Assembly (NCBI GenBank): GCA_947478755.1
Contig: CANJXH010000005.1
Span: 1 to 44,231 of the forward strand
Length of the DNA stretch: 44,231 bases
Reading direction: 5' to 3'
Origin: Betaproteobacteria bacterium
GTDB lineage: Bacteria > Pseudomonadota > Gammaproteobacteria > Burkholderiales > Rhodocyclaceae
Shown: positions 823-39,327 of the stretch, in pieces
Numbering within the stretch: the first letter of the stretch is position 1
Layout: each line of letters begins with the position of its first letter
Translations under genes and position numbers: made by a program
Notes under the pieces: model-generated
Seen by the model: only the letters and a program-made list of their open reading frames with translations
The model's database searches: none
What the model was told of the DNA's origin: nothing

Positions 823-823
823 G

Positions 824-1474
824 ATGGATATCGCCGGGTTATCGCAACTCGTCATTCACTTTGACCAGCATGTTGGCAGCTTTGCCGTGCAGCACGGTAC
901 CGCAATCTACGCGATGCTGTTCGCGATAGTATTTGCCGAGATCGGCCTGATTCCCTTTTTCTTTCTACCCGGAGATCCACTGTTGTTTCTGTGCGGCGCC
1001 TACTGTGCTACCGGTGCAATCAGCATCTGGGTGCTGATGCCGGTCTTGTTTGCTGCCACTATCGGTGGCAGCACGTTAAGTTACGCGATTGGCAAGCGCG
1101 TCGGCGTGAAGGTCTTCAGCCTGAATTACCGTTGGCTGGACCAGCAGGCGCTCCATCGCAGCAAGGACTTTTATGAACGCCACGGGCACATCACCTTCCT
1201 CCTGTCCCCTTATATCGCCGTGGTGCGAACGTTTGCTCCCTTTGTCGCCGGTGTCTCGGCGATGGCGTACCCGAAGTTCCTGCTCTCAGTGATTGCTGGC
1301 GCAGCGCTCTGGACAGGTGGGCTTGTGATTGCCGGTTATTACTTCGGCAATGTGCCGATCATCCGCGACCATATGAATGCCATTGTACTGACAGGCATCG
1401 GGCTTGGCGTCGGTTCACTGGCGTTTGGCAGCATATGGCGCCATGTCAAATGCGCGAGATGCCCAGCGAACTGA
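824..1474 (+). CDS. DedA family (VTT domain) inner-membrane protein
   Basis: A protein of 216 residues with several hydrophobic segments and the DedA/VTT signature region: an acidic Glu in the first membrane segment (FAEIGLIPFFFLPGDPLL), then a later loop with Arg in VVRTFAPFVAGVS and a Gly-rich re-entrant stretch. DedA proteins act in the inner membrane as lipid flippases or in proton-dependent membrane homeostasis; the substrate of this one cannot be told. The ATG at 824 lies one base after the hslO stop and begins MDIAGLSQL, typical of the family. An in-frame upstream start at 755 would add a non-homologous 23-residue stretch inside hslO and is rejected. The gene ends 13 bases before a decayed DUF1295 stub. 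Confidence 0.88.
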   Translation: MDIAGLSQLVIHFDQHVGSFAVQHGTAIYAMLFAIVFAEIGLIPFFFLPGDPLLFLCGAYCATGAISIWVLMPVLFAATIGGSTLSYAIGKRVGVKVFSLNYRWLDQQALHRSKDFYERHGHITFLLSPYIAVVRTFAPFVAGVSAMAYPKFLLSVIAGAALWTGGLVIAGYYFGNVPIIRDHMNAIVLTGIGLGVGSLAFGSIWRHVKCARCPAN

Positions 1475-1486
1475 GCGGGTTATAAC

Positions 1487-1561
1487 GCCATGGGGTCTCG
1501 ATCCGGATATCAGAAGCTGATGTCGAAGACCAACAGCTTCTTACCGATTCCGCAGAGGAAA
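1487..1561 (+). pseudogene. C-terminal stub of a DUF1295 steroid-reductase-like gene
   Basis: Read in frame from 1487, 25 codons match the extreme C-terminus of the intact DUF1295 protein at 11039-11878. By hand alignment 17 of 25 residues are identical with no gaps, including the run KTNSFLPIP followed by x-R-K. The stop codon is lost (AAA CAG CCG follows), and nothing of the preceding 250 or so residues remains: DedA ends only 13 bases upstream. This is a deletion remnant, and it marks one edge of a duplicated segment whose other copy lies at 11039-12933. Confidence 0.8.
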
Positions 1562-1570
1562 CAGCCGAAC

Positions 1571-2731
1571 TTAGCCAAGATTGTTTTTCTTGATGCGGGC
1601 ACAAACATCCAGCTGGCGTCCAATGGACGCCTGGGCATCAGCGGGATCCAGCAGCAAGGGCAATAATTCAACCAGATCGATGCAGGTTGCACCTGCATCG
1701 ACAAAGGGCTGAATCTGCGCCGCCACCTGTTCCGCATTGCCCCAGATAAAACCCAGCTCCGACATCTTGCGCGTGACCTGCCCCAATATCCGGTCAACCT
1801 CGGCACGATCGGTGTACTGGTACGGAACAAGCTTCATGGAATAGTGCCAATCAACCGGAAACGCAGGCATCTCGCCGTAGGCGTGCCAGTCCGCCATGTT
1901 CATGCGGCCGTATATCGCCACCAGCCAGCGGAGCAAGGGGTTGTCAAGCGCCTTGCGGATGACCTCCGGGTCATCATGAATCAAGGTGAATACCCAGAGA
2001 CAAAAACCGAATTTCTCCGGATCGCGCCCCTTGGCTGCCACGTCGTTGCGCATTGAGCGAACCATGTCCGCAAATTTCTCCGGGGTCGCCACTACATTGG
2101 GGGCGACCGTGGCAAAGCCATCTGCATGGCTTGTCGCCAAGTCGATCAATTTGGGACCACCCCCAAGCGCATAGATCTGCGGTCTGTTCGGGCGCACGCC
2201 GCCAATCCATGCCTTGTCGAAATTCCAGCAATGGCCCTGCATGCTCACCATGCCGTCACCTTTCCAGAACTCGTCGTAATAGCGCAGATGGTCCTCCTGG
2301 CGCTTGAGCCCCTCCGAGCGTTTCCAGCCATAGGGCTGCGTCTGCTTCAATTCACCGGCACCGATCTGAAGCATCGCGCGGCCACCGCTAAGATTGGCAA
2401 GCGTCAGCATGGTCTGCATCATTTCCGCCGGGCCACGCCGAATCGCATCGGTACTGATGGTGATGCCGATACCCGGCGCCGCGGCAGAAGCATAAGCGGC
2501 GAGGACAGCAGGATCGGCTGTCGAATCAAGGTCGGGGATCATCGTCGCCAACGGACTGTTTTGTGGCGACCACAAGTGCGGCGGCCACCAGCCGTTCATC
2601 TGGTCGGCGACGTGCAGGTAGTCGACGCTCCCATTGGCGTGGATCGCACTGGCAATCTGTGTCAGGGCAGCTGCCGGAAGACTGCGATCGGCATTGAGCA
2701 TCAATGAGGTCTGAATCGTGTTTGACGTCAT
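1571..2731 (-). CDS. LLM-class (luciferase-like) flavin-dependent oxidoreductase
   Basis: A protein of 386 residues with the bacterial luciferase-like TIM-barrel pattern. It has an N-terminal strand and sampling loop, the family core LSGGRAMLQIGAGE after a RRGPAEMMQ segment, and a C-terminal half with regularly spaced helices ending in FVDAGATCIDLVE. Relatives use FMN or F420 to oxidise or reduce hydrophobic substrates; the cofactor is not decidable here. The start at 2731 is chosen because GAGGAGGAAG sits just upstream of the ATG; the frame stays open 47 codons further but without family similarity. It diverges from the sulfotransferase at 2853 across about 120 bases. It lies between a DUF1295 stub and that sulfotransferase, an arrangement not seen in the sister copy at 11039-12240, so it was inserted here or lost there. 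Confidence 0.85.
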   Translation of the reverse strand: MTSNTIQTSLMLNADRSLPAAALTQIASAIHANGSVDYLHVADQMNGWWPPHLWSPQNSPLATMIPDLDSTADPAVLAAYASAAAPGIGITISTDAIRRGPAEMMQTMLTLANLSGGRAMLQIGAGELKQTQPYGWKRSEGLKRQEDHLRYYDEFWKGDGMVSMQGHCWNFDKAWIGGVRPNRPQIYALGGGPKLIDLATSHADGFATVAPNVVATPEKFADMVRSMRNDVAAKGRDPEKFGFCLWVFTLIHDDPEVIRKALDNPLLRWLVAIYGRMNMADWHAYGEMPAFPVDWHYSMKLVPYQYTDRAEVDRILGQVTRKMSELGFIWGNAEQVAAQIQPFVDAGATCIDLVELLPLLLDPADAQASIGRQLDVCARIKKNNLG

Positions 2732-2749
2732 TTTCTTCCTCCTCGGTTT

Positions 2750-2799
2750 TATCTTACCCGGTTTGCAGCCGCAGCCCATCATGATGTGCAGGTAAGATA
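2750..2799. promoter_or_regulatory. Long-arm inverted repeat between divergent genes, candidate operator or leader stem
   Basis: An exact 9-base inverted repeat TATCTTACC (2750-2758) and GGTAAGATA (2791-2799) is separated by 32 bases. Between the arms is a second short palindrome CATCATGATG. It begins 19 bases upstream of the luciferase-like start at 2731 and lies inside the divergent promoter region shared with the sulfotransferase at 2853. It could bind a regulator of both genes or fold in the leader of the minus-strand transcript. No regulator gene is in the window, so the role is inference. Confidence 0.35.
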
Positions 2800-2852
2800 G
2801 CGCAAAGCAATGAGTCGCATCGAACTCAAGCGCAAATTGTGAGGAGAGCCAC

Positions 2853-4058
2853 ATGGCTGAAGCCAGCACCATTACAATGCCGGTAATCGGGATTGAAGAT
2901 CTGCATCCCGATCTTCTGCTTGCCGCCGCATCAAAAGCAACCGGCCTCGCTGATTACGGCGACATGGATTTTCTCGAAGGTTTCACCCTCTACCTTGAGG
3001 ATCTGCGCACCGACGCCGGGCTGAGCGAGAGCGGCGTCGGCAACATTCGTCAGGATATCCTGCGCATGCTGTCCAACCGGCTTGGATTCGTGCGTGATCT
3101 GACGCAGCACCCCGAAATTCTCGATGAAGCCATCGAACGACCAATCATCATCACCGGCTTGCCGCGCACTGGAACCACCAAGCTGCAGCGAATGATTTCC
3201 GCCGACCCGGGAGTGCAGCGGCTCGAAGCATGGCGCGTCAACTTTCCTGCTCCATTTCCCGACAGCGCTGTCATCAGACCGGATCCGCGGATTGTGCTGA
3301 TGGAACAGATCGAGAGTGTGCTGAAAACACAGTACCCGGAAATGATGGCGCGCCACCCCGTCGAAGCGCGCGAGCCGGACGAAGAGTGGTACCTGATGGA
3401 AATGACCTTCGCCTCCTCGTTCTCCTCGATCAGAACACCTGCGCCAAGGCATCGGGCGTGGATGGAAAGCCGGTCGCAGGTGCCGGTGTATGAGTATCTG
3501 CGCAGAATCCTGCAGTACCTGCAATGGCAAGACGGCGGTGGCCGTGGCCGGCCGTGGGTGCTCAAGACACCTGCTCATCTTGGCAACCTGCTGGAGCTGT
3601 TCGAGGTTTTCCACGATGCTACCCTGGTGCATTGCCATCGTCATCCGAATTCTGTGGTCGCCTCGGCGGTGTCGCTACTCGAAGCCGGACACGGCATCTA
3701 CTGCAAGCACCTCGACCTGCGTGTGATTGCAATGGGTTTTATCGACTTCTTCACCAAACAACTCGAACGCAATTTCTCTGCGCGGCAAACCCTCGGCGAG
3801 TCACGCATCGTGGATGTCTATTACGACGACATCCGCGACCGACCGCTGGATATCATCAGCGACATTTACGATCGTTGGGGACGTCGCCTGACGCCCGAAG
3901 CAAAAAGCGCCTTGACGGAATGGAACGAAAGCCGACCCGAAGGCTACAAGGGCAAGTATCGCAATGAGGCAGAACGGATCGGTGTGGATCGGGCCGAGAT
4001 TGAAGCCGCATTCGCAGATTACCTGCGCCGCTTTCCGCGTCTTGCAGAACATGACTGA
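2853..4058 (+). CDS. Sulfotransferase family protein (Sulfotransfer_3 type), copy 1
   Basis: A 401-residue cytosolic PAPS-dependent sulfotransferase-fold protein. The 5'-phosphosulfate loop is TGLPRTGTTKLQRM (residues 101-114). The LKTP segment lies near 237-240. The 3'-phosphate site is HRHPNSVVASAVSL, with Arg263 and Ser271 as the usual nucleotide-binding pair. An N-terminal helical segment of about 95 residues precedes the P-loop, as in the other three paralogues here. GAGGAGA lies upstream of the ATG. The family moves sulfate from PAPS to hydroxyl groups; in steroid and lipid degraders such genes sit in catabolic clusters but their acceptors are mostly unknown. This is the surviving sulfotransferase of a duplicated segment: a decayed copy of the same gene lies at 11927-12170. 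It is the most divergent of the four paralogues in the window. Confidence 0.85.
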   Translation: MAEASTITMPVIGIEDLHPDLLLAAASKATGLADYGDMDFLEGFTLYLEDLRTDAGLSESGVGNIRQDILRMLSNRLGFVRDLTQHPEILDEAIERPIIITGLPRTGTTKLQRMISADPGVQRLEAWRVNFPAPFPDSAVIRPDPRIVLMEQIESVLKTQYPEMMARHPVEAREPDEEWYLMEMTFASSFSSIRTPAPRHRAWMESRSQVPVYEYLRRILQYLQWQDGGGRGRPWVLKTPAHLGNLLELFEVFHDATLVHCHRHPNSVVASAVSLLEAGHGIYCKHLDLRVIAMGFIDFFTKQLERNFSARQTLGESRIVDVYYDDIRDRPLDIISDIYDRWGRRLTPEAKSALTEWNESRPEGYKGKYRNEAERIGVDRAEIEAAFADYLRRFPRLAEHD

Positions 4059-4541
4059 AGCCACACCCCTGAAAATCAAGCTCTATCCTGCACTGGATAC
4101 CAAACAGCTTTCACTCTGCCACATCCAAGAAACATCTAAACTGACTCGGTTGCCTGTACGCTCGCGTTCGTGCTCAATTGGTAATCCATTGTGTAGAAAC
4201 AAATGCAGAAAAGGCCGCTGGGATCCATATGCTCAATTTATTGGTCGCCGGCACACTTCAATACTTGGCCAGATGCGATGCTTGTGCCAATGTCAGGATT
4301 CCGGCAATTGCTTTAACCGAACACATGCCGCACCCAGCCCAGATAGCGGTGAAGACCTACGATTTGGCTGCACGTCCAATAGCCGACGTGGCCGTGCAAG
4401 AAAAGTAACGATCGAAGCAGGAACATCGCTAGCGCAACGGCGACATCTCAACTTCCCCCCCTGGAAAAGTGCTCGCTGCTTGCGGAGATAGGCACTAAAA
4501 AGGACAAAGTTTTTCGTCGCGTAGTGAAATACTTCCAGTCG
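4059..4541. other. Gene-free stretch carrying duplication remnants
   Basis: No credible gene. Bases about 4080-4135 align with 12180-12234 downstream of the sulfotransferase ghost (shared GGATACC, CAGCTTTCAC, GCC-CATCCA-GA). Bases 4136-4237 are the stub listed separately. Beyond about 4240 similarity to 12340 onward becomes too weak to follow by eye. The rest, up to the acyl-CoA dehydrogenase 3' end at 4542, shows lower coding character and nothing I can name. Confidence 0.5.
4136..4237 (-). pseudogene. C-terminal stub of the six-segment membrane protein gene
   Basis: On the minus strand, 33 codons ending in TAG (4136-4138) match the C-terminus of the intact membrane protein at 12235-12933 without gaps. 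Sixteen of 33 residues agree by hand alignment, including GLF-x-I-x-FY, YQL and the terminal ES. Upstream (toward higher coordinates) the frame is broken at once by TAA at 4238-4240, and the rest of the gene is gone. With the DUF1295 stub at 1487 this frames the intact sulfotransferase between two decayed neighbours. Confidence 0.75.
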
Positions 4542-5711
4542 CTAGGCCGACTTCGTCCGTAGTAGCTTGCCGTCGAACAGGCTCCTGCCGATGATGTATT
4601 TCATGATCTCGATTGAGCCACCGGCGATCTTGACGATGCGGGCGTCGGCATAGGCGCGGGCGATCGGGTATTCCCACATATAGCCCCAGCCGCCGAAGAG
4701 CTGCAGGCATTCGTCCACCACCTTGCAGTGCAGGGTCGACAGCCACATCTTGCCCATGGCGGCGTCGATGGCGTCGAGCTGATCGCTCATGAAGAGCTCG
4801 ATGCACTTGTCGGTGAACACGCGGCCGATGGTGGCCTCGGTCTTGAGTTCGGCGAGCTTGAACTGGGTGTTCTGGAAGTCGGCAATGGTCTTGCCGAAGG
4901 CTTCGCGCTGCAAGGTGTAGTCGATGGTGTATTCGATCACCTCTTCGGCGACGACGGCGGAGCGTATGGTTTGGGCCAGACGCTCCTGCGGCAGTTTAGT
5001 CATCATGAGCTCGAACCCCTGCCCCTCCTTGCCGAGCATGGCGCTGGCGGGCACGCGCAGGTTTTCGAAAAAGAGTTCCGAGGTGTCCTGGGCACGCAAT
5101 CCCAGCTTCTCGAGGTTCTTGCCGCGCATGAAGCCCGGCAGGCTGGTATCGACCAGGAACAGGGTGACACCCTTGGCCCCGGCGGCACTGTCGGTCTTGG
5201 TGGCCAGCACGATGACGTCGCACATCTGGCCGTTGGAGATGAAGACCTTCTGCCCGTTGATGATGAAGTCGTCGCCGTCCCGGACGGCACGGGTGCGGAT
5301 GGCCTTGAGGTCGGAGCCGGCGTGGGGCTCGGTCATGCCCAGCGCGCCGATGGCTTCGCCACTGACCATCTTCGGCAGCCACTGCCGCTTCTGCTCCTCG
5401 CTGCCGAAGGACTTGACGTAGGTGGCGACGAGGTCGCAGTGGATCAGGAAGCCGGGGCCGGTATAGCCGCAGCGGGCGATTTCTTCGAACACGACCACAT
5501 CGAACAGATAGTCGAGGCCGAGGCCGCCGTATTCTTCGGGGATGGTACAGCAGAGCATGCCGGCGGCGCCGGCCTTGTGCCACAGCTCGCGCGGGCAGAT
5601 GCCGTCCTTCTCCCACTGGGCGTGGTAGGGCGCGATTTCCTTTTCGATGAACTTGCGAACGGTGTCGCGAAACTGGTGGTGCTCTTCACGGAATAAGGTG
5701 CGTTCAATCAT
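4542..5711 (-). CDS. Acyl-CoA dehydrogenase, long-chain/isovaleryl type active site
   Basis: A 389-residue FAD enzyme that introduces a 2,3 double bond into an acyl-CoA. Order of parts: helical N-domain (1-120); FAD/substrate loop IGALGMTEPHAGSDLKAIRT (121-140); beta domain; C-terminal helical domain with REAFGKTI and QLFGGWGYMWEYPIARAY (338-354). The usual C-terminal catalytic Glu of medium-chain enzymes is Gly here (IAGGSIEIM, 362-370). The Glu in PQER (Glu243) takes the place used by long-chain and isovaleryl-CoA dehydrogenases. It is last in a minus-strand set with SnoaL-like, SDR and enoyl-CoA hydratase-like genes, so a beta-oxidation-like role on a large or branched acyl-CoA is likely. 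No electron-transfer flavoprotein gene is nearby. Confidence 0.93.
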   Translation of the reverse strand: MIERTLFREEHHQFRDTVRKFIEKEIAPYHAQWEKDGICPRELWHKAGAAGMLCCTIPEEYGGLGLDYLFDVVVFEEIARCGYTGPGFLIHCDLVATYVKSFGSEEQKRQWLPKMVSGEAIGALGMTEPHAGSDLKAIRTRAVRDGDDFIINGQKVFISNGQMCDVIVLATKTDSAAGAKGVTLFLVDTSLPGFMRGKNLEKLGLRAQDTSELFFENLRVPASAMLGKEGQGFELMMTKLPQERLAQTIRSAVVAEEVIEYTIDYTLQREAFGKTIADFQNTQFKLAELKTEATIGRVFTDKCIELFMSDQLDAIDAAMGKMWLSTLHCKVVDECLQLFGGWGYMWEYPIARAYADARIVKIAGGSIEIMKYIIGRSLFDGKLLRTKSA

Positions 5712-5736
5712 GGTGGGGTATCAATAAAAAACGTTT

Positions 5737-5862
5737 GCCACAGAGGACACAGAGATCACAGAGGAAAAGCCAAACCCATGGGAAAGCGATTCCACGCTGT
5801 AAAGACAAATATTCGCGTTCAATCGACGTGCCTTTCTCTGTGCCCTCTGTGAACTCTCTGGC
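5737..5862. repeat. Long imperfect inverted repeat, CACAGAGG family, copy 1
   Basis: The left arm (5737-5767) is built of CACAGAGGACACAGAG-type units. The right arm (5833-5862) is its imperfect complement, ending CTCTCTGGC. The loop is about 65 bases. It sits between the SnoaL-like gene and the acyl-CoA dehydrogenase of one operon, so the transcript would carry a stem of roughly 30 base pairs. A second member with the same arms lies at 36499-36590. Such GC-poor units built on CACAGAGG are a widespread family of dispersed non-coding repeats; mobility in trans is an inference. Confidence 0.85.
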
Positions 5863-5901
5863 TTCAATATAAGCGTAACCCCCGACAATGCCCGGTCGGC
5901 G

Positions 5902-6297
5902 TCAGTTATCGCTCAGAAACTGGACCAGCAGCTGCGTGTCCTGCGGATAGACATCGAGGTGCACCACCTTGTCGTTGCGACAGGTATAGACCTCGACATA
6001 CGGCATCATGATGCTCTTGCCGGTCTTGCGCGAGGTGAAGGTCAGGTCCATCGAGGCGGCGACCTTGTCGCCCGTTCCGAGCAGTTCGCAGCGGCCGAAC
6101 TTGATGATCAGCCGCCCCATCAGGACCCCCAGAACATCCTTTTTGAACGCCTCGGATCCAAGGTGCGTCCCGCCGTACGGTAGCGACGGCGGCTCAATAC
6201 ACTTCATGTCCTGATCGATGCAGGCCATCACGCCTGCGGCATCTTCGCGCTTGACGGCTTCGAGCATTGCACCAACCACTTCAGCAGCTGTTTTCAT
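5902..6297 (-). CDS. SnoaL-like / NTF2-fold protein
   Basis: A 131-residue protein of the NTF2-like cone fold (SnoaL, ketosteroid isomerase relatives). Sequence marks are an N-terminal helix MKTAAEVVGAMLEAVKRED, DQDMKCIEPPSLPYGGTHLG typical of SnoaL-like proteins, and strands ending in VHLDVYPQD. The ATG at 6297 is chosen because AAGGAGGAGC precedes it; an upstream in-frame start lacks that support. Members are isomerases, hydratases or cyclases acting on small polycyclic compounds. Here it lies between an SDR and an acyl-CoA dehydrogenase, so a step on a pathway intermediate is likely, but the reaction cannot be read from the sequence. Confidence 0.8.
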   Translation of the reverse strand: MKTAAEVVGAMLEAVKREDAAGVMACIDQDMKCIEPPSLPYGGTHLGSEAFKKDVLGVLMGRLIIKFGRCELLGTGDKVAASMDLTFTSRKTGKSIMMPYVEVYTCRNDKVVHLDVYPQDTQLLVQFLSDN

Positions 6298-6378
6298 GAT
6301 TGCTCCTCCTTGTTGTAAGCCTTGTTTCAATCATCGGGCGCCTCGATGCACCAGTCGTCTATGAAACACCGAACAAGT

Positions 6379-6472
6379 CCGTTCGTGGTGAGCCTGTCGA
6401 ACCACATGCCAACTAAACCACAGCAATTTATACTGTCTGACGCTTGCCCTTCGACAAGCTCAGGGCGAACGG
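6379..6472. repeat. REP-like inverted repeat (TTCGACAAGCTCAGG type)
   Basis: The left arm CCGTTCGTGGTGAGCCTGTC... (6379-6404) is the imperfect complement of the right arm (6446-6472), which contains CCTTCGACAAGCTCAGG and ends GCGAACGG. The loop is about 41 bases. This arm sequence is a commonly seen extragenic palindrome in many proteobacterial genomes. It lies in the 206-base gap between the SDR stop and the SnoaL-like start, inside a probable operon, and could act as an RNA stability or attenuation element. Confidence 0.8.
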
Positions 6473-6503
6473 AAGGCTTGGTCGGCGATTCCCTATGCAA
6501 AAA

Positions 6504-7319
6504 CTACGTGGCACCCTGCTCGCGGTCGTGCTGCGGCCGGCCGGCATCTTCGACCTTTGCGGCCAGTTCTTCGGGGCGCGGGAAGCGCTGCAGGAAATGC
6601 CCGCCGTTCAACTGCAGATTGATCCCGGTGGCGTAGCAGGGCCCGGCCAGCCACAGCACGGCGTTGGCAAAATCGCTGGGCACGCCTATGCGCTTGAGCG
6701 GTATCTCGTATTCCATGCGCTCCTTCACCTGCGGGTTGGTCAGCAGGTCCCAGGTCAGGTCGGACAATATCGGACCAGGCTGTACGGAATTCACCCGGAT
6801 GTTGCGCCCGCCGTATTCCACGGCCGCATAGCGCACCAGGCAATCGGTCGCTGCCTTGGCACAGGCATAGGGGAACAGCGGGCCCATGACATTGGTCGTT
6901 GCCATGGTCGAAATGATGACAATCGATCCGCCATTGCCCATCGCGGCGGCAGCGTGTTTGACGAAATAGACGTTGGCAAGGTAGTTGGTGTCGAGCGACG
7001 ATTGCAAGGTCGCGGTTTCGGCTGTCTCGATCGGGCCCATCAGCGCCGAGCCGGCGGCATTCACTGCAATGTCGAGCTGCCCGTATTCCTTGAGCGCCGT
7101 CGCGATCAGCAGCTTGATGTCGTCCTCGCTGGTGGCGTCACAGCGCACCGCGATGCCTCCGGTCTTTTTGGCCAACTCCTGCAGCGGCGCCAGCGTTCGC
7201 GCACCGACCACCACCTTTGCGCCCTGCGCTGCCAGTGCTTCGGCAATGGCCCAGCCCGTACCACGGGCCGACGAGGCCCCCAGCACCACGGCAACCTTTC
7301 CTGTGAAATCAGTACCCAT
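6504..7319 (-). CDS. SDR family NAD(P)-dependent oxidoreductase
   Basis: A 271-residue classical short-chain dehydrogenase/reductase. The Rossmann loop is GASSARGTG (14-22), NAAG is at 87-90, the catalytic Asn at 112, Ser137, and Tyr151-x3-Lys155 (YACAK), followed by the PG motif of the cofactor site. The C-terminus runs about 20 residues past the usual end (GGHFLQRF then a charged tail). GAGGAGG precedes the ATG. It lies 86 bases downstream of the enoyl-CoA hydratase-like gene on the same strand. Together with that gene it would give the 3-hydroxyacyl or hydroxysteroid dehydrogenase step; substrate unknown. Confidence 0.92.
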   Translation of the reverse strand: MGTDFTGKVAVVLGASSARGTGWAIAEALAAQGAKVVVGARTLAPLQELAKKTGGIAVRCDATSEDDIKLLIATALKEYGQLDIAVNAAGSALMGPIETAETATLQSSLDTNYLANVYFVKHAAAAMGNGGSIVIISTMATTNVMGPLFPYACAKAATDCLVRYAAVEYGGRNIRVNSVQPGPILSDLTWDLLTNPQVKERMEYEIPLKRIGVPSDFANAVLWLAGPCYATGINLQLNGGHFLQRFPRPEELAAKVEDAGRPQHDREQGAT

Positions 7320-7405
7320 TGAATGCTCCTCCTCTTGTTTTGGTTTTGCTCAACGCTGCCCCGGCGCTCAAACCGGGCAGAAACCCTTGTGTCTCTTGGC
7401 CGGCG

Positions 7406-8215
7406 TCAGCGTTTGGTGAAATTCGGCGCTCGTCGCTCACCGAATGCGCGAATCCCCTCCTTGAGATCCGCATTCTGCAGCATGGTAAGCCCTTCATAGG
7501 CCAGCGACGTTTCCAGCACGCTGTGGACGGCCTGGCGCAAGGGCAGGTTGACCGCCAGTTTGGTATAGGCCACTGCGGCATAAGAGTTCGCCAGCAGCTT
7601 GTCGACGAACTTCCGCACCGCGGCATCGAGTTCTTCTGCCTTGACCGCGTAATTGATCAGCCCGATCTGTGCCGCCTCGGGTGCCGAAATCGCACTGCCG
7701 GTGAGCAGGTATTCCTTGGCCTTTGCATAGCCGATGAGCTGCGGCCAGATCAGGGCGCCGCCATCGCCGGCGACGAGGCCGATCTTCACGTGCGGGTCGG
7801 CGATGCGCGCGGTATCGCAGGCGATGATCATGTCGCACATCAGGGCGATGCTGGCGCCAAGGCCGATGGCGTCGCCATTCAGGCGGCAGATGATCGGCTT
7901 GGGGCATTCCAGAATGCCTTTGACGATGCGCTGCCCGACCCGCATATTGTCCAGGTGCAGCGGCAGCGACTCTGCCAGTCCGGAAAGCCAGGGCAGATCA
8001 CCGCCGGCACAAAAGGCCTTGCCATTGCCGGTGAACAAGATGACGGACACGCGTTCGTCGTCAGTGAGCCGGTCGAAGATGGTCGACAGTTCGTGGTGCA
8101 GTTCGGCGTTGATCGAGTTCAGCGAGGCGGGACGGTTGATCGCCACCGTAGCAACGCGTTCCTCGATCGATACCTGCAGGGTCGTGTACGTCGAATAGTC
8201 AGCGTGGTCTGACAT
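7406..8215 (-). CDS. Enoyl-CoA hydratase/isomerase (crotonase) family, atypical active site
   Basis: A 269-residue crotonase-fold protein; the start at 8215 (MSDHADYS) has GGAGAG upstream. The two oxyanion-hole segments are present: CAGGD (69-73) and GLGA (118-121). The glutamates that hydrate enoyl-CoA in the rat enzyme align with Ser122 and His142, so both are missing. An Asp (151) in GDGGALIWP may be catalytic instead. It could therefore be a hydrolase, isomerase, lyase or dehalogenase-like member rather than a hydratase. As first gene of the minus-strand set (then SDR, SnoaL-like, acyl-CoA dehydrogenase) it likely acts on a CoA thioester in the same pathway. The 260 bases upstream, up to 8475, hold no gene and should contain the divergent promoters. 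Confidence 0.88.
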   Translation of the reverse strand: MSDHADYSTYTTLQVSIEERVATVAINRPASLNSINAELHHELSTIFDRLTDDERVSVILFTGNGKAFCAGGDLPWLSGLAESLPLHLDNMRVGQRIVKGILECPKPIICRLNGDAIGLGASIALMCDMIIACDTARIADPHVKIGLVAGDGGALIWPQLIGYAKAKEYLLTGSAISAPEAAQIGLINYAVKAEELDAAVRKFVDKLLANSYAAVAYTKLAVNLPLRQAVHSVLETSLAYEGLTMLQNADLKEGIRAFGERRAPNFTKR

Positions 8216-8475
8216 CGGGCTCTCCAGTATTAATTGTCTATGGCGTTCGAGACGGAATCCGGCAAGCGGTTGCCACACCGAAGACGTCTCTCAGGTTCCC
8301 GATGCTACTGTATTCCCGCATCAATCTGCTCGCGACCTGTGCGCGCAACAATTCCGCGGATGGCGGGCATTTTCTGCTACGATTTTCGCGCCCGAACACT
8401 ACGCATTCGATGTGCGGCTATCCGGATAAAAACGACCTGCACTCGCCAAAGCTGCAGGCATGAGGAGATACCACG

Positions 8476-9648
8476 ATGAGTTTCGCTGCACGCCTCGACG
8501 CATTTCACGAGCAGGCCATGGCCGCGGCCGGGGGGCTTGCCGACTTCGGCGACCCTGGCTACCTCGACCCCTTGCGCCTGCTGGCGAAGGATCTCGATTG
8601 CAATGCCAGGCTCAGCAAACTGGGTGAGCAGATCATCGCCGGCAATATCGTCGGAGACCTGATCGCGCGCCTGCTGGAGGAACAGGGCTACAAGTCCTTT
8701 CCGCAATTCGTCGAAGCCCCTATCGAGAAGCCGCTGATCATCATCGGCATGGCCCGAACGGGGACGACGGTGCTGCACCGGCTCATCGGCCTCGACCCTG
8801 CCCTGCAGACCTTGCCGATGTGGCTGGCTTGCGCACCAATGCCACGTCCACTTCGTGAAACCTGGGAGTCGAATCCCGTCTTCAAACAGGTACAGCAGGG
8901 GATCGAGCAGATCCAGCAACTGTCGCCGAAGTTCAAGCAGATGCACCCCCAGAGTGCGGAAGCGGCGGACGAATGCCGTTTCATCTTCAACCACAGTTTC
9001 ATCTCGCCTACCTATTCGGCGACCGCCCATGTTCCCGAATACACCGAAATGCTCAAGGCCGATTCCGGCTTTGGCAAGTACCGTCGCTATCACAAGACCC
9101 TGGGCGTGATCGGTGGCAACACCGACAGGCGCTGGCTGCTCAAGTGCCCGACGCACCTGTGGAACCTCCCTGCCCTGCTCGACATCTTTCCCGACGCCTG
9201 CATCATCATGACCCATCGCGACCCGGTCGACTCGATAACGTCGATCGTCAGCCTGGTGTATGAGTTGATCCGTATGGCTGCACCGTCGATCAGCCCGCAG
9301 GATTTTGCGCGCGAACACAGCGACACCTGGGGCTGGGTGCTGAACAAGGCCGAACGTGATCGCGAAGCCATCGACCCGGCGCGCATTTTCGACATCCATT
9401 TTGACGACATCCGGACCGATCCGATCGGATCGATCGAGCGTATCTACCGCCATTTCGACATTCCCGTCAGCGAGGCCGCGCGCACGGCGTGGCAGCAGCA
9501 GGTGCGCGAAGACCCTAAGGGCGGCCACGCCACGCATCACTATCGGCCCGAAGATTTCGGGCTGACGAAGGAAGGCATCCGGCGCTGTGCCGGCCGGTGT
9601 TACGATCGTTACCTGCAAGTCGAGGCGGCACGCTCGGCGCCGGCTTGA
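8476..9648 (+). CDS. Sulfotransferase family protein (Sulfotransfer_3 type), copy 2
   Basis: A 390-residue PAPS-type sulfotransferase. The 5'-phosphosulfate loop is IGMARTGTTVLHRL (about 90-104), WLLKCPTHLW follows near 220-229, and the 3'-phosphate site THRDPVDSITSIVSL gives Arg248 and Ser253/Ser256. GAGGAGA lies upstream of the ATG. It is first in a plus-strand set with a Sec-exported DUF1214 protein (90 bases later) and DUF1295. This repeats the sulfotransferase plus DUF1214 pairing seen at 35075-42055. It shares the N-terminal AAGGLADFGDPGYLDPL pattern with copy 1 rather than the DWREPF pattern of copies 3 and 4. Confidence 0.87.
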   Translation: MSFAARLDAFHEQAMAAAGGLADFGDPGYLDPLRLLAKDLDCNARLSKLGEQIIAGNIVGDLIARLLEEQGYKSFPQFVEAPIEKPLIIIGMARTGTTVLHRLIGLDPALQTLPMWLACAPMPRPLRETWESNPVFKQVQQGIEQIQQLSPKFKQMHPQSAEAADECRFIFNHSFISPTYSATAHVPEYTEMLKADSGFGKYRRYHKTLGVIGGNTDRRWLLKCPTHLWNLPALLDIFPDACIIMTHRDPVDSITSIVSLVYELIRMAAPSISPQDFAREHSDTWGWVLNKAERDREAIDPARIFDIHFDDIRTDPIGSIERIYRHFDIPVSEAARTAWQQQVREDPKGGHATHHYRPEDFGLTKEGIRRCAGRCYDRYLQVEAARSAPA

Positions 9649-9737
9649 TGCGAATGGAGGCACCGGACAATCGCCGGCTGATCGATTGAATAAGGCAGCC
9701 CAAAGCTGCAAAATGAGTACACGCGAGGAGACGCAAA

Positions 9738-10997
9738 ATGAAAACAAGGCTGCTGTCCACACTTACCCTTCTCGCCGCGCTGTGCGTGACCCCTCCGGCA
9801 TTCGCGGATGACGGCGCGGTGCCCGACGAGTGGTCCAAGATTGTCAATGGCTTCGCACACCTCGGTGCGCTGACCGGGCGTCTGTCCGATCCGCAGGACC
9901 CGCAGCTGCGCGAGGAGTTCTACAAATTCATGGTTTCCGCCGCCGCGCAGGGCTATCTTGGCCTGCTCTATGCCGACATCGACCATCCCGATTTCTATCC
10001 CGCCTTTGCTCCCGCCTACAATTTCATGGGGCCCAATCCGGACAACGTGTATTACATGACGCCAGTCGAAGACAAGGGTGTCTACCGGATCAGCGGCACG
10101 CGCGGGACCGTTCATATCATCGACTTCAACCTTGGCAGCGGAATGCTGCTGGCGAACGGCACCGGTCGGCTCGAAAAAACCAAGGCCAACTACGACATCG
10201 ACCTCAATGCCAAGGTGCGCAAGGACGGCACCTTCGACATCATCATGAGCCCGGAGCGCCCCCAGGGCTACAAGGGCGACTGGTGGAAGCTCGAACCTGG
10301 CACGACGGTGCTTTTCCTGCGTCAACTTTCCTATGACGCGGCAAAGGAGCTTGACGGCCGCATCGCCATCGAGCGCCTCGACCGCGCCGCGATCAAGCCG
10401 CGGCCGAGTGCCCAGCGCCTCGCGGAAAACCTCGCGCTGCTGTCGACATGGACCGAGAACTGGGTAAATTTCGGCTTTGACTGGCAGAAGCGCCTTGTTG
10501 ACCAGGGCCTGGTGAACAAGGTGGTCGCGCGCAACATCAATGACGTCGGCGGATTTACGACGCAGATCTACGTCGAAGGCACTTTCGACCTGGCGCCGGG
10601 CGAGGCGCTGATTTTCGAAACCGTGATTCCGAAGAAATGCCGTTACTGGAACATCCAGCTCACAGATGAAAAATTCTCCGCCGTCGACATCATCAACCGG
10701 CAGACCTGGCTCAACGGACGCAGCGCCCGCCTGGACCGCGACGGCAAGTTCCGCGCCGTCATCTCGGCCGAGGACCCCGGCGTACCGAACTGGCTCGACA
10801 CCGCAGGTTATCGCAAGGGCGAAATCCTCGGCCGCTGGAATACCTGCGACAGCGCGCCGACACCGGTGGTCACCAAGGTCGCGATCGGCGACGTCCGCAA
10901 GCAACTCCCTGCCGACACGCCGACAGTGACGGCGCAGGCTCGCGATGACTCCATCCGCGCCCGGCGCAAGGCGGTGCAGATGCGGCGGCGCTGGTAA
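9738..10997 (+). CDS. Sec-exported DUF1254/DUF1214-type protein
   Basis: A 419-residue protein with a clear Sec signal peptide: Lys/Arg start, hydrophobic LLSTLTLLAALCV, then a likely cut after AFA near residue 23. It is therefore periplasmic or secreted. The C-terminal third carries the DUF1214 pattern: an aromatic YWNIQL segment, then EDPGVPNWLDT and GRW. The N-terminal half has PAYNFMGPNPDN and VYRISGTRGTV, similar to DUF1254-type jelly rolls. Biochemistry of the family is unknown; members cluster with steroid and aromatic degradation genes. Preceded by GAGGAGACG. The other three DUF1214-type proteins in the window have Tat-like leaders and a different N-terminal half, so this is a separate subfamily. 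Confidence 0.82.
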   Translation: MKTRLLSTLTLLAALCVTPPAFADDGAVPDEWSKIVNGFAHLGALTGRLSDPQDPQLREEFYKFMVSAAAQGYLGLLYADIDHPDFYPAFAPAYNFMGPNPDNVYYMTPVEDKGVYRISGTRGTVHIIDFNLGSGMLLANGTGRLEKTKANYDIDLNAKVRKDGTFDIIMSPERPQGYKGDWWKLEPGTTVLFLRQLSYDAAKELDGRIAIERLDRAAIKPRPSAQRLAENLALLSTWTENWVNFGFDWQKRLVDQGLVNKVVARNINDVGGFTTQIYVEGTFDLAPGEALIFETVIPKKCRYWNIQLTDEKFSAVDIINRQTWLNGRSARLDRDGKFRAVISAEDPGVPNWLDTAGYRKGEILGRWNTCDSAPTPVVTKVAIGDVRKQLPADTPTVTAQARDDSIRARRKAVQMRRRW

Positions 10998-11038
10998 TCC
11001 CCGCTTCATCGAAAAAAATAAATCTCAAGGAGGACTGC

Positions 11039-11878
11039 ATGACGGAATTGCTCGCCGCTCTCGGCTTCGACATGGGCACGAACAGCGGCATTTTCTGGTT
11101 CGGTGTCGCCTGGACCGCTTTCATCATCACGGTGATATGGATCGTCGGCTACGCACTTGAAGGCCACCACGGCATGATCGACGCTTTCTACGGCTACGGC
11201 TTCGCGATGCAGATCTGGATCGCCTATTACTTCTCCGGCGCCAACTCGTCCATTGCGACGGCGCTATTGATCATGGGCTCGCTGCACAGTTGCCGGCTCG
11301 GCATCTACCTGTCCCGGCGCTGGCTGGGCTATCGACGGAAAGGCACCGGCGACCAGCGTTACATGGGCTTCGTGCCAAAGCTGTCGCCCGGTTACTGGTG
11401 GAAGAGTCTGCTCCTAGTGTTGCAGCCACAGACCGCGATGATCACCTTCGGCTGTATGGCAGCGACCTGGGGCATCCTGGCCAATGCACACAATATTGCG
11501 CCGCTGAATATCTTCTCCATCATTGGTATCGCCGTCTTCGGCATCGGCTATTACTACGAGACCGTCGCCGACGGCCAGCTCCAAGCCTTCAAGGCCGACC
11601 CGCACAACAAGGGGCGTTACCTGAACACGGGTGTCTGGACCTATACCCGGCATCCGAACTATTTCGGCAACGTCACCGTGTGGTGGGGAATCTACATTGT
11701 CGCGGTGGCCGGCAATCCTGACTACTGGTGGATCATCGCCGGACCGATCGTGAACACCATCCTGCTTACCGGCATCGTCGGCCGTGCCTTCCAGGACAAT
11801 TTCATGGGCGGACGACCGGAGTACCGCGAACTGATGGCGAAGACCAACAGCTTCCTGCCCATCCCGCCGCGAAAATGA
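11039..11878 (+). CDS. DUF1295 membrane protein, steroid 5-alpha-reductase-like
   Basis: A 279-residue polytopic membrane protein with about seven hydrophobic segments. The C-terminal reductase/methyltransferase signature of this superfamily is present: GRYLNTGVWTYTRHPNYFGN (about 196-215) followed by WWGIYIV. A charged DNFMGGRPEY motif sits at the end. Eukaryotic relatives reduce delta-4 double bonds of steroids with NADPH; bacterial DUF1295 proteins are mostly uncharacterised, so the activity is inferred. Excellent Shine-Dalgarno (AAGGAGGA). Third gene of the plus-strand set after the sulfotransferase and DUF1214 protein. A 25-codon stub of a second copy survives at 1487-1561. Confidence 0.85.
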   Translation: MTELLAALGFDMGTNSGIFWFGVAWTAFIITVIWIVGYALEGHHGMIDAFYGYGFAMQIWIAYYFSGANSSIATALLIMGSLHSCRLGIYLSRRWLGYRRKGTGDQRYMGFVPKLSPGYWWKSLLLVLQPQTAMITFGCMAATWGILANAHNIAPLNIFSIIGIAVFGIGYYYETVADGQLQAFKADPHNKGRYLNTGVWTYTRHPNYFGNVTVWWGIYIVAVAGNPDYWWIIAGPIVNTILLTGIVGRAFQDNFMGGRPEYRELMAKTNSFLPIPPRK

Positions 11879-11926
11879 ACTGACTCTGTCAGTTCGATCG
11901 CAGGCACAAATTGTGAGGCGAGTCAC

Positions 11927-12170
11927 TTGACTTAAGCCAGCAACATTTATTAGAACAGCCTGCGCAGACTGTCGAAGTGGCCAAGATTCGCCCGTGACCA
12001 GAAGCAGTATCGCGAAATTCTTGATTAGCGCATAGTGAAGCTGATAATCACCCGCTTGCCTCATACCGGCAGCACCAAATGTGCAACGAATGATATTCGC
12101 TGATCCCGGACTAAAGCAGCTCGAAGCCTGACGCGTCAACTTACCCACACCCCTTCGCGGCAACGCTGCC
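11927..12170 (+). pseudogene. Decayed, internally deleted sulfotransferase gene
   Basis: This is a ghost of the gene at 2853-4058. Bases 11895-11955 align with 2820-2880: the shared leader AAATTGTGAGG, then the start codon changed from ATG to TTG and the third codon from GAA to TAA. A deletion removes the equivalent of about 2880-3058. Bases 11959-12170 then align with 3059-3270 with few indels, including a mutated phosphosulfate loop (LPRTGTT became LPHTGST) and several stops. A further deletion of about 800 bases removes the rest, and 12180-12234 matches the 3' flank of the intact gene. It starts 16 bases after the DUF1295 stop, where a downstream operon gene would be expected. Confidence 0.82.
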
Positions 12171-12234
12171 AAGGCGGTACTATCGGATATCTGGATACCG
12201 CACAGCTTTCACCGTGCCGCATCCAGAGAAACGA

Positions 12235-12933
12235 CTATGCCGACTCGGCGGCCTGCCTTTTTGCCGCGTTGATCAGCTGGTAACCCATCACATAAAACCA
12301 GATGCTGAAGAGGCCACCCGGAATCCAGAAGGCGAGCAAACCATTCCATGCAAAGGGCCCGGTCTTGAACATGGTGATGAATCCGCCCGGCACGTACAGC
12401 AGCGCCAGCCAGAAATTGAAGAAGCCCACCCAACGCGGCATGATCGGGTTCGGGCGCTTGTCGCCGATGATGGCGGCACCGAGCGATACATTCTGCAGAA
12501 ACGGCAAGGTGAAGGGCATCACGAAAATGAACCAGCCGAGGTCGTTCAACGCCTGGGTGATTTCGGGGTTGCGATCGGGACGGAACGCCGCCACGGTCCA
12601 CAGCAGCGCCGGCAGGATGAAAAACAGGGTCTGCGGAATCGAGCCCGCCAGCTGGGCATAAGTCAGGACTGGCGTTTCACGATTTTCCATGCGGCGCATT
12701 TGCGCTGCAATTGCAGCACCGAAGGCGCCGGCAAGCGCGCCAGTGATGATGAACAGAATCGAGGCAAGTCGAATGCCGAACAGATTCTGTTGATAAAGCG
12801 CGGCAATTTCCTGCGCGCCGGAAGTCGGCAGCGTCGGCGGGAAAAACCCGGCGGCTGGCCACAAACCGGCAAACATGAAGACCGGGCACAGGTACCCGCA
12901 CCACGCACAAATGATCTGGCTTCTCGCATTCAT
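12235..12933 (-). CDS. Conserved membrane protein, about six transmembrane segments, function unknown
   Basis: A 232-residue hydrophobic protein. Segments begin with CGYLCPVFMFAGLWPAAGFF, followed by FGIRLASILFIITGALAGAFG, a FFILPALLW segment, FIFVMPFTLPFL, FFNFWLALLYVPGGF and FWIPGGLFSIWFYVMGYQL. Loops carry PRWVG and NPEITQALND. Relatives I recall occur next to steroid and acyl-CoA genes in actinobacteria and proteobacteria, without known function; I cannot give a firm family name. A GAGGGGAG ribosome site supports the ATG at 12933. It converges on the DUF1295 set with the sulfotransferase ghost between them. A stub of a second copy lies at 4136-4237. Confidence 0.72.
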   Translation of the reverse strand: MNARSQIICAWCGYLCPVFMFAGLWPAAGFFPPTLPTSGAQEIAALYQQNLFGIRLASILFIITGALAGAFGAAIAAQMRRMENRETPVLTYAQLAGSIPQTLFFILPALLWTVAAFRPDRNPEITQALNDLGWFIFVMPFTLPFLQNVSLGAAIIGDKRPNPIMPRWVGFFNFWLALLYVPGGFITMFKTGPFAWNGLLAFWIPGGLFSIWFYVMGYQLINAAKRQAAESA

Positions 12934-12983
12934 TGCTGCACTCCCCTCGTTGGTATAAGAAAATTCAGGCTATCACATTCCGC

Positions 12984-14957
12984 TCAGGCTGCCGGTGGCC
13001 AGAAGAACTCGCGTGGCGTGTACCAGAAGCGCTTCAGCACCAGCACAAACAAGGCCCAGCCCTGGCTGAACTCGACGCGGCGCGAGCGCAAGGCCACGCC
13101 CAGCGCCAGCGAAAAACTCACCATGAGATTGGTTGCCCCGATCAGGACAATACCCAGCAGGGACAGCAGCCACTGCTCCATCGTCAGTTGATAACCGGAA
13201 CCCGCGAGCGCAAAGGCGAAATTGGCACTGGAGAAGGTAATGTGCCGTATGTCGATGGGCAGCCCGAAGATAAAGCCAAGGATTCCCACGCTGCCGAGCA
13301 TGATGCCGAAGAAGAAGTTACCGGCAAGGGCGCCGAGGTTGTCGGCGATGTATTCCGTCATTCGCTGCAGACGCTCCTCGCCGAGCAGTCGACGCAGCCA
13401 GCGTAACTGACGCAGCCGTGCCGGAATCTCGTTGTAGGCTGCCTTGTTGTCGTAATAGCCGGCAATGAGCCCGGAAAGAAACAGGCAGATGCCGGCTATT
13501 GCCGCATGCGGCAAGGCGAGGCTACGGAAGGGATCGATATCGTGAAGCAGATGCTGCACCTTTTCCGGATCGGCCAGATGTTGCCCATGGAAAAATTTCC
13601 ACACTACCGCAATGGCAAGAGCCGTCGGCATGGCAACCATGATGTTGCCGACAATCGCAATGAACTGGGAACGCGCCACGCACACGACGAGTTCGGCCAG
13701 CTCGTGCAGTTTCTGTTCGCCCTTGTCGATGGAGGCGGCAATTGCGGCCGCCGTCATTGCCGGTTGCTTGGTAGCGACCGTGTAGTGCAGCACATGGATC
13801 AGCATGAAGCCAAACGAATAATTGAGGCTGTAAAAAAACAGGTAGCCGAAAGGCGCCAGTATCAGTTTTGAAAACAGGACCTTGATCATGGCCATGAAGC
13901 CGACAATGAATCCTGCCCCGGCGGCAGACCCGAACATTTCCTTCCACTCCGCTACGGTTCTGGTCACATAGTGCTCGCCAGTGCGGCTTGCCCTTTCCGT
14001 GACCTGCAAAGCCAGCAATTCCGTATTGGTCTGGAACAATCGCCTTATGCTGAGCTTGGTTGCATTTGCTGCTACCAATTGCTTGAACAGATCGATACCG
14101 TTATCGCGGGCAGCATCCAGCGACGCCGGATCAATCAGGGTCAGCAACATGCGCAATCGGTCAATGCTCTGGGTCAATCGCAGCAACAACCGTGTCAGGC
14201 TGACTGAAACGCCACTCACCGCTGCCTGGCGACGAATCCGGGTGACAATTTCCTCGCATTGGCCAAGCAGCACTTCGATGTGCCGGTGGTCTTCAAAGGG
14301 CTGATGGTGATCAAGCAGCCAGCGCTGAAGGCTTTCGACAAAAGCAACCACCTCTGTGTTCTGCCGTAAAAATGGTGATTCGAAATTTTCGATATCAGGA
14401 TGGTTGCGCACGAGTTCCGGCTCCAACCCGATTGCCGTGATCCGGTATGAAAGTACCTGCACGGCCTCCAGCAGCTCGCCCATTACAGCCGCATGAAACG
14501 CCTGAGAATTTCGCCAATGAAAACCTAGCGCCTTCACCAGGGCATCCCACACGTCGTTTTCGACGCCGCATACCCAGTGCCGGTCGCTAGTTCTCTCAAA
14601 CAACTGCCCCAGCACGTCTTTCATGTAGCTGTCGTTGACGGTCGGTGGCAACCACTTGTGATTGAGCCTTTGCCAAAGCTCGGCAAAGAAACCCTGATTC
14701 TCGAGGATGCCGATATCCGTGCACAAATGCACCAGCTTGCGCGTCCCGATCACCGCAACCACATGGTCGCGCAAGGCTACGGCCAGTTCGGGCCTGCTCT
14801 CCAGCAGGTAGGTAAGCGCACGAATGTTGCGGGTGGCCTCGGAAATGTCCGTCGCACGCTTCGGCCGCAGCTCCGAGATCAAGGCATGCAAGGGGTCGAT
14901 ATCGTGCCTGACCGCCTGGCTGGCATCAGCGCAAAGTTGTTCGAGAAGGATATCCAT
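12984..14957 (-). CDS. COG4389 'site-specific recombinase' (Gcr-like) large membrane protein
   Basis: A 657-residue protein. The N-terminal half (about 1-330) is soluble and helical, with two possible coiled stretches. The C-terminal half has at least six membrane segments (GFIVGFMAMIKVLFSKLILA, the YLFFYSLNYSFGFMLIHVLHY region, FIAIVGNIMVAMPTALAIAVV, AAIAGICLFLSGLIAGYYDN and others). It matches the family named site-specific recombinase after a Neisseria gene. No serine- or tyrosine-recombinase catalytic set is visible and the protein is clearly membrane-bound, so the name is probably misleading. It is transcribed toward the DUF1295-associated membrane gene. The 296 bases between its start and the bactofilin gene hold no gene. 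Confidence 0.82.
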   Translation of the reverse strand: MDILLEQLCADASQAVRHDIDPLHALISELRPKRATDISEATRNIRALTYLLESRPELAVALRDHVVAVIGTRKLVHLCTDIGILENQGFFAELWQRLNHKWLPPTVNDSYMKDVLGQLFERTSDRHWVCGVENDVWDALVKALGFHWRNSQAFHAAVMGELLEAVQVLSYRITAIGLEPELVRNHPDIENFESPFLRQNTEVVAFVESLQRWLLDHHQPFEDHRHIEVLLGQCEEIVTRIRRQAAVSGVSVSLTRLLLRLTQSIDRLRMLLTLIDPASLDAARDNGIDLFKQLVAANATKLSIRRLFQTNTELLALQVTERASRTGEHYVTRTVAEWKEMFGSAAGAGFIVGFMAMIKVLFSKLILAPFGYLFFYSLNYSFGFMLIHVLHYTVATKQPAMTAAAIAASIDKGEQKLHELAELVVCVARSQFIAIVGNIMVAMPTALAIAVVWKFFHGQHLADPEKVQHLLHDIDPFRSLALPHAAIAGICLFLSGLIAGYYDNKAAYNEIPARLRQLRWLRRLLGEERLQRMTEYIADNLGALAGNFFFGIMLGSVGILGFIFGLPIDIRHITFSSANFAFALAGSGYQLTMEQWLLSLLGIVLIGATNLMVSFSLALGVALRSRRVEFSQGWALFVLVLKRFWYTPREFFWPPAA

Positions 14958-15253
14958 ATCGGACGTCAGTGTGCCCGGTTGTTCATTTTTTGCAACGCCA
15001 AAAAAACGTCGTCAATCGGCGACAGCACATGTGCAGGCAAAACAGGCAGTTGCCGGGATAAAGCCATGCCGTCGTCTGTACCTGGCGACAAAGCTGCCCG
15101 CAGGGGGCTTTTTCTTTTACACCTCGTTTCCGTCATAAGCCGATGAATGTACATCGCTAATTGCCAATACTCTGCGACTGGCATGGGGCTTGCGAAAGGC
15201 AGGGCATCCAGGGTAGCCGTGTTGCGCCGCCTCGGTTCAGATAAGGAACTCCC

Positions 15254-15802: not shown

Positions 15803-15859
15803 ACCCTCCGGTCGTTGCTGCCGCAGCAGGAACGACCGGACAGGTTCAACCATCCCCCT

Positions 15860-15911
15860 GCGCTACGGGCACTCTCCTCCCTCCCCCACTTTCAGCCCGT
15901 AGCGCTTTTTT
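15860..15911 (+). terminator. Rho-independent terminator after bactofilin gene
   Basis: An 11-base exact stem, GCGCTACGGGC (15860-15870) with GCCCGTAGCGC (15895-15905), is followed directly by six T residues. The loop is 24 bases, longer than usual. A second exact 9-base hairpin without a T run lies just upstream (15808-15816 with 15831-15839). Together they separate the bactofilin unit from the ACT-domain gene at 15984. Confidence 0.75.
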
Positions 15912-15983
15912 CACTGCCCGCAGCGCCCTGACTCGGTGCTTCGCTAGAATGCTGACTCAACCGTCATTCCGGGTCACGCACGC

Positions 15984-36478: not shown

Positions 36479-36498
36479 AATGAAACTCAAAAGCTTTA

Positions 36499-39310: not shown

Positions 39311-39327
39311 AAAAACAGGAGGAGAAC

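Follow-up and report, generated by a model that had tools for sequence, protein, structure and literature searches.

Genes can be reordered when a segment is copied and genes are then lost at random from either copy, a route known as tandem duplication-random loss (TDRL), and remnants of the lost genes may separate the survivors. A 2022 paper from the group behind SNAP (Selection during Niche Adaptation) reportedly claims in its title a large-scale rearrangement by such a duplication-and-loss route. TDRL has been reported for mitochondrial genomes (PMC3283314). In SNAP, as outlined by its authors, a segment duplication followed by differential loss leads to a new gene order (Brandis and Hughes, 2020; PMC7055797). 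Their account proposes pseudogenes with matching active copies as the intermediates to be sought, and it describes direct empirical evidence of such rearrangements in modern bacterial species as so far absent (PMC7055797). For Psychromonas ingrahamii, a second alpha-operon segment is described together with its genes under an asymmetric loss model, and a natural bacterial segmental duplication (or a transfer from a close relative) is invoked in that text for changes of gene order (PMC8046335).

The locus considered here lies in a window of 44,231 nucleotides (the whole stretch of DNA analyzed), where a block composed of a DUF1295 gene, a sulfotransferase gene (ST) and a membrane-protein gene (MP) on the opposite strand (DUF1295 > ST > < MP) is recognizable twice. 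As in the SNAP account, different genes were lost from the two copies and a pseudogene is present with its matching active copy; however, the SNAP process is described as beginning when positive selection, during niche adaptation, favors a duplicated stretch of chromosome, whereas the traceable block here is small. With TDRL it would share reordering by copying and loss and the possibility of remnants between survivors, but TDRL concerns compact organelle genomes, while here a bacterial chromosome, protein genes and extra genes between the copies are involved. In contrast to P. ingrahamii, whose second segment is presented with its genes, both copies are partly destroyed, in a complementary way. 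By analogy, the locus appears to work as SNAP and the duplication-and-loss models describe. No earlier description of a bacterial locus with complementary remnants was found in the literature searched.

Collinear homology of the two copies

Comparison of the copy-one region (1400-4560) with the copy-two region (9600-13100) by blastn with a word size of 7 gave four collinear plus/plus matches of 70-82% identity, with a diagonal running across all three gene remnants: 1517-1561 with 11831-11875 (82%, E 1e-7; DUF1295 stub), 2820-2873 with 11894-11947 (81% over 54 nt, E 8e-10; ST start and upstream DNA), 3040-3273 with 11940-12171 (70%, E 5e-25; ST ghost) and 4093-4216 with 12191-12315 (72%, E 5e-12; ST/MP junction and MP end). 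The chain of four HSPs (1400-4560 against 11803-12330) scored 266 bits, above all controls, the best of which reached 72 bits among 1000 random 3161-bp segments drawn from 33 stretches of the same genome and 86 bits among 1000 first-order shuffles; chance collinearity is thereby ruled out. Two collinear homologous segments are present within one genome, each carrying remnants of genes that are intact in the other (for the MP stub, at the DNA level only), and the remnants are nearer to their partner copy than to other paralogs across the whole genome (assembly 95.87% complete), with a finer comparison within the 33 stretches. Among the 20 largest families of direct repeats in 1400-13100, the longest is the block itself.

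Differences between the copies, pooled over the three remnants, were distributed over codon positions as 24/132, 26/134 and 54/131 (p 1e-5), which confirms that the remnants were once coding and in register. The third-position excess was rejected as evidence for a period with both copies functional, since it could be explained by the intact branch together with third-position saturation.

Survivors and remnants

The intact genes lie where the preliminary description had placed them. The DUF1295 gene survives in copy two (11039-11878, plus strand; PF06966, E 1.9e-44), and the genome contains this one gene, a single stub in copy one and no further place. The stub (plus strand), which lies 14 bp past the stop of the VTT-domain gene, retains the last ~24 codons but has lost its stop codon, so that the frame runs on. 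Its identity was borne out by the 82% match, and its extent had to be adjusted to 1489-1561, since the alignment can be extended to 1489 at 71% over 73 nt (against 11803-11875).

The surviving sulfotransferase, ST1 (2853-4058, plus strand; PF13469, E 2.1e-32), belongs to copy one, where the upstream DNA at 2820-2852, same strand, is common to both copies as part of the 54-nt match (81%). Its counterpart in copy two is, as suspected earlier, a ghost, identified with its upstream DNA at 11894-12171 (plus strand) by DNA matches to ST1 and the DNA before it. The start is lost (ATG to TTG, 11927), codon 3 is a TAA stop (11933), 174 bp are deleted at 11940, and an 800-bp deletion has removed everything beyond ~12171; small gaps are also present, at least one with a length that is not a multiple of three. 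The 174-bp deletion is bounded exactly by the 8-bp repeats GCACCATT (2866) and GCAACATT (3040), one of which is left in copy two. When the changes were polarized with the contig C9 sulfotransferase, the one closest to ST1, 227 sites gave 10/12/14 changes by codon position on the ghost branch and 2/2/5 on the ST1 branch, and three more outgroups agreed. The decay of the ghost has been almost position-blind and near-neutral. Searched against the whole genome, the stretch 11879-12234 matched three copy-one pieces at 104, 54 and 46 bits and one other sulfotransferase (contig C149) at 51 bits, the remainder being at chance level; judged by these matches, copy one is the best fit for the ghost genome-wide, with nothing better elsewhere.

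The MP gene is intact in copy two (12235-12933, minus strand), as an open reading frame with no Pfam family. Its stub in copy one (4136-4227, minus strand) comprises ~30 codons of the 3' end and was recognized by its DNA match to the end of the MP gene; the earlier boundary of 4237 moves to near 4227. The strongest part of the MP-side match (35 nt at 86%) is intergenic, within the ST-MP spacer at 4093-4132, which is homologous to about 12191-12231. The stub was seen neither by a profile of 12 MP proteins (best E 0.2) nor in the protein screen of intergenic pieces; with 4059-4541 as query against the whole genome, copy two was found at 62 bits and all else was at chance level. The DUF1295 and MP remnants are short, with 45-73 nt and about 80-90 coding nt, respectively.

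The segmental duplication with reciprocal loss proposed beforehand is supported by collinear homology that includes intergenic DNA and by local partners that are the best genome-wide, but the block is not cleanly one of three genes. In copy one, a luciferase-like monooxygenase gene (1571-2731, minus strand; PF00296, E 3.5e-30 for 1571-2761), its start at 2731 being our choice within the open reading frame, sits between the DUF1295 stub and ST. It is absent from copy two, and the copy-to-copy offset falls across it from 10314 to 9074, corresponding to 1240 extra bp. A role as an F420 enzyme was considered and set aside: a search of the genome for the CofD family gave no match (0 of 1).

Origin of the second copy

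The duplicated block is real and old, and its losses are complementary. That it arose by duplication within the chromosome, followed by complementary gene loss, is in our judgment probable. An ancestral DUF1295 > ST > < MP block would have been copied in direct orientation, for which a tandem duplication of one segment is the simplest route. Independent losses would then have stripped copy one of DUF1295, down to the final ~24 codons, and of the greater part of MP, and copy two of ST through start loss, nonsense mutation and two deletions. ST1 now ends 7 kb upstream of DUF1295, beside a new divergent neighbor, and would in effect have been relocated through copying and loss. The order of the survivors (ST1 ... 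DUF1295, MP) is unlike that read in copy two, a possible change of linear order. Counting against this reading, the order before duplication was seen in no relative: at an E threshold of 1e-5, neither DUF1295 nor MP was matched in the flanks (at most 8 kb and often shorter) of any of 37 ST loci from other genomes, and no intact block was present at the DUF1295 and MP loci within flanks of about 1.5 kb, in genomes that are not closely related. The preliminary description took the complementary pattern as telling; such a pattern can arise without selection, as six of the eight outcomes are reciprocal if each of the three genes keeps one random copy.

The genes between the copies (4542-10997) encode, by Pfam, an acyl-CoA dehydrogenase, a SnoaL-like protein, an SDR, an enoyl-CoA hydratase, a second sulfotransferase and a DUF1214 protein. 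No further copy of them was found beside either block (left flank 1.5 kb to the contig end), which would suit a small tandem duplication (~3 kb, DUF1295-ST-MP twice) with 6.4 kb of intervening genes inserted later. This is a variant of the main explanation, included in the confidence given to it, and accounts for a modest share of that confidence. Against it, the DUF1214 gene lies 41 bp before DUF1295 in what looks like a native operon order, ST with DUF1214 nearby recurs (among the 37 ST loci outside this genome, 25 have a DUF1214 match in the available DNA, and in 11 of the 37 it immediately follows ST in the same direction) and is also seen in this genome, and the six genes between the copies include no mobile-element family. 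A Pfam scan of the 15 proteins of 52-16496 revealed no transposase family; one of them, directly right of copy two (12984-14957), belongs to PF10136, named "Site-specific recombinase". It is taken as a resident gene because the congener has it at 72%, and a role in the duplication is possible.

Unlikely on balance is a xenologous second copy, that is, a diverged homologous block from a related strain recombined nearby, with complementary losses afterward. The 38-46% third-position difference implies copies long apart, and the outlier family repertoire, with at least 26 Sulfotransfer_3 (PF13469) matches in this genome against none in one congener and at most 10 in every other of 101 genomes, suggests that at least part of it was imported. 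However, the like orientation and the 8-10 kb spacing are simplest under tandem duplication, the 500-bp GC content is 0.51-0.60 across copy one, with its minimum at the MP stub, and 0.56-0.59 across copy two, and no outside sequence near enough to separate the copies was found. Plasmid relatives (63 records for DUF1295, 18 for MP) were all below 60% identity. A genomic island flanked by conserved neighbors, Hsp33-VTT to its left and SpecificRecomb to its right, was also considered and set aside. Nine relatives around Hsp33 and one congener around SpecificRecomb had only low-identity ABC-transporter matches as further common neighbors, and the congener had no Hsp33 match, so that context gives no polarity.

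That the stubs arose separately from scattered paralogs of ST and MP, and fell into the same order by accident, is highly improbable. The amplification of the two families speaks for it, as does further gene debris, since a screen of 475 kb gave a match to a sample protein for 13 of 162 intergenic pieces, but the chain score far exceeds both controls, homology continues through intergenic DNA, and the whole-genome partner searches, which gave no better fit for the ghost or the MP-stub stretch, rule out debris of other paralogs.

Family expansion and gene order

Besides its sulfotransferases, the genome keeps at least 28 matches to the MP family. Because both families are amplified, the earlier suggestion that one copy of each gene was enough is weak for ST and MP; only DUF1295 is single. 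Older duplicated modules recur in the genome, for example 35194-37878 with 38026-42053 in the same window.

Gene order in bacteria can change without a gene being cut out and moved, and probable fossils of such a route are visible here. In the debate on how this happens, cut-and-move rearrangements are regarded as costly in most cases, and an alternative has been put forward in which genes are first duplicated and then lost. With a natural trace that has lesions in both copies, and with other old modules and gene debris around it, the process would be open to measurement and need not be taken for granted. Tentatively, the locus may preserve, in directly legible form, a change of gene order by duplication and complementary loss in a bacterial chromosome. 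In its lineage, repeated duplication would have enlarged the set of degradative genes, and SNAP-like events might then be countable genome-wide in one organism.

Collinearity of the two copies

Copy one (about 1489-4227) consists of a DUF1295 stub, a monooxygenase gene, an intact sulfotransferase gene (ST1, 2853-4058) and a stub of a membrane-protein (MP) gene, and copy two (about 11039-12933) of the intact DUF1295 gene, a decayed sulfotransferase ("ghost") and the intact MP gene (12235-12933), which encodes a 230-aa protein without a Pfam family. Comparison at the DNA level gave four matches in the same order, all on the plus strand, with E-values from 1e-7 to 5e-25: 1517-1561 with 11831-11875 (82% identity), 2820-2873 with 11894-11947 (81%), 3040-3273 with 11940-12171 (70%) and 4093-4216 with 12191-12315 (72%). 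The collinear diagonal over three gene remnants supposed in the preliminary description is thus present. Against the control target 11803-12330, the real pair scored 266 bits vs 72 for the best of 1000 random segments drawn from 33 own-genome stretches and 86 for the best of 1000 first-order shuffles of copy one. A 51-bit match known from the finer comparison within the 33 stretches was absent from the best random segments listed; by itself, it would not change the control outcome.

The own assembly (2.63 Mb, 193 contigs, 95.87% complete; the window is its contig C5) holds at least 26 Sulfotransfer_3 matches (26 of 61 candidates scored), at least 28 MP matches (28 of 40 candidates scored), and one DUF1295 gene plus one stub. 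Sulfotransferase sites in the window lie at 2853-4058, 8476-9648, 36615-37880 and 40706-42055. Searched against the whole genome, the ghost (11879-12234) found three pieces of copy one at 104, 54 and 46 bits and one other sulfotransferase, on contig C149, at 51 bits, the remainder being at chance level; for 4059-4541, which includes the MP stub, only copy two stood above chance level (62 bits). The finer comparison within the 33 stretches agreed with these partner searches. The MP stub is the weakest of the three remnants: it was unrecognised by a profile of 12 MP proteins (best E 0.2) and missed by the intergenic protein screen, and it therefore rests on DNA similarity continuing from the intergenic part.

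Lesions and decay

The DUF1295 stub, located 14 bp past the stop of the VTT gene, retains only the last 24 or so codons, and its stop codon is gone. Copy one also carries 1240 bp extra (copy-to-copy spacing 10314 to 9074) with a minus-strand gene for a luciferase-like monooxygenase (1571-2731), either an insertion in copy one or a clean deletion from copy two. Its product resembles F420-dependent subfamilies but scores far below their cut-offs; since the CofD family of F420 synthesis was not found in the own genome, FMN use is likelier than F420. A second luciferase-like monooxygenase lies at 33032-33847.

By sequence and alignment, TTG replaces ATG at the start of the ghost, and its codon 3 is TAA. 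A 174-bp deletion (spacing 9074 to 8900) ends at the repeats GCACCATT at 2866 and GCAACATT at 3040 (ST1 positions), and a single such octamer remains in copy two. Small gaps follow, at least one of them no multiple of three, and 800 bp of the 3' part are missing up to the intergenic region (spacing 8898 to 8098).

Pooled over the three remnants, the copies differ at 24/132, 26/134 and 54/131 sites of codon positions 1, 2 and 3 (p 1e-5); for the remnants taken singly, p is 0.004 (ghost), 0.12 (DUF1295 stub) and 0.009 (MP stub). The surplus at third positions marks the remnants as formerly coding and aligned in frame, but is no proof of a time when the two copies functioned together. For the ghost and ST1 (this pair only), changes were assigned to branches by using ST1's closest sulfotransferase, on contig C9, as outgroup over 227 sites, 15 sites with all three different being set aside. 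The ghost branch had 36 changes (10/12/14 by codon position), and the ST1 branch had 9 (2/2/5). Other outgroups gave 11/11/15 and 0/3/8 (C18), 8/11/15 and 1/4/7 (C14), and 9/9/14 and 0/5/6 (C149), where C18 and C14 have one in-frame stop each and C149 stops at its contig end. The ghost thus accumulated about four times as many changes as ST1 when C9 is the outgroup, and about three times as many under the other three. These changes depend little on codon position, which fits a sequence free of constraint for most of its existence.

Relatives and other duplications in the genome

Among 100 relatives plus the own genome (101), the ST protein was matched in 7 genomes, MP in 5 and DUF1295 in 11; across class-wide samples of 369 genomes, MP was matched in 6 (best identity elsewhere 50%) and DUF1295 in 68 (best elsewhere 42%, in an alignment covering part of the protein), the own genome included throughout. 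MP relatives occur on plasmids of Novosphingobium, Rhodococcus, Mycobacterium and others (18 records), the annotated ones mostly as hypothetical protein. At 37 ST loci of named genomes (Mycobacterium, Zhongshania, sphingomonads and others), no DUF1295 or MP match lay anywhere in the flanking DNA examined (up to 8 kb, often less); DUF1214 matches were present at 25 of them, in 11 cases immediately following ST in the same orientation. ST was absent around the relatives' DUF1295 and MP loci (flanks of about 1.5 kb) and from a 17-kb stretch of another genome, G003, with MP. Conserved genes flanking the region had no common context in the relatives looked at. The search for the same block in relatives, proposed earlier, therefore did not recover the pre-duplication order, which is read from copy two alone.

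The own genome, with the highest Sulfotransfer_3 count of the 101 (next 10; 0 in the one congener compared), has old duplications of other modules. A non-random 475-kb sample (the window plus 33 stretches picked around ST and MP matches) gave 18 listed chains of at least two collinear matches, several inside one gene and others over two. A DUF1214-sulfotransferase module stands twice in direct order (35194-37878 and 38026-42053; 68 and 74% DNA identity), with an additional DUF1214 gene between. A simple gene finder left 162 intergenic pieces of at least 70 bp, of which 13, including the DUF1295 stub and the ghost, matched a protein of the same sample; some of these probably reflect mistakes in gene calling, and two come from a single gene. 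Other possible remnants with same-genome relatives lie at 51880-51999 of contig C3, 8908-9744 of stretch L109, 10052-10416 of L128 and elsewhere. The DUF1214 gene after the C9 sulfotransferase (L103, 10745-12022) seems broken: two parts of it lie in gene-finder gaps, yet a single tblastn match spans it.

Probable duplication with complementary loss

Collinear matches, best-fitting local partners and lesions in both copies uphold segmental duplication with reciprocal loss as the simplest account: the block would have been duplicated in direct orientation and then have lost complementary genes from its two copies, which we regard as likely. Import of an already diverged version of the block from a related strain is improbable. 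No mobile-element families were found among the genes between the copies. The right neighbour of copy two belongs to PF10136, named 'Site-specific recombinase', of which a congener also has a member (72%). Under duplication and loss, the complementary pattern by itself is not evidence of selection, because when three genes each keep one copy at random, 6 of the 8 possible results are reciprocal. The earlier suggestion that one copy of each gene was enough may hold for DUF1295 and does not plainly extend to ST and MP, whose families have more than 20 members here. Text in PMC8046335 appeals to a segmental duplication followed by asymmetric loss to explain operon rearrangements; with such published models, the mechanism is already known in principle, and the locus is a new, unusually legible example of duplication with complementary loss.
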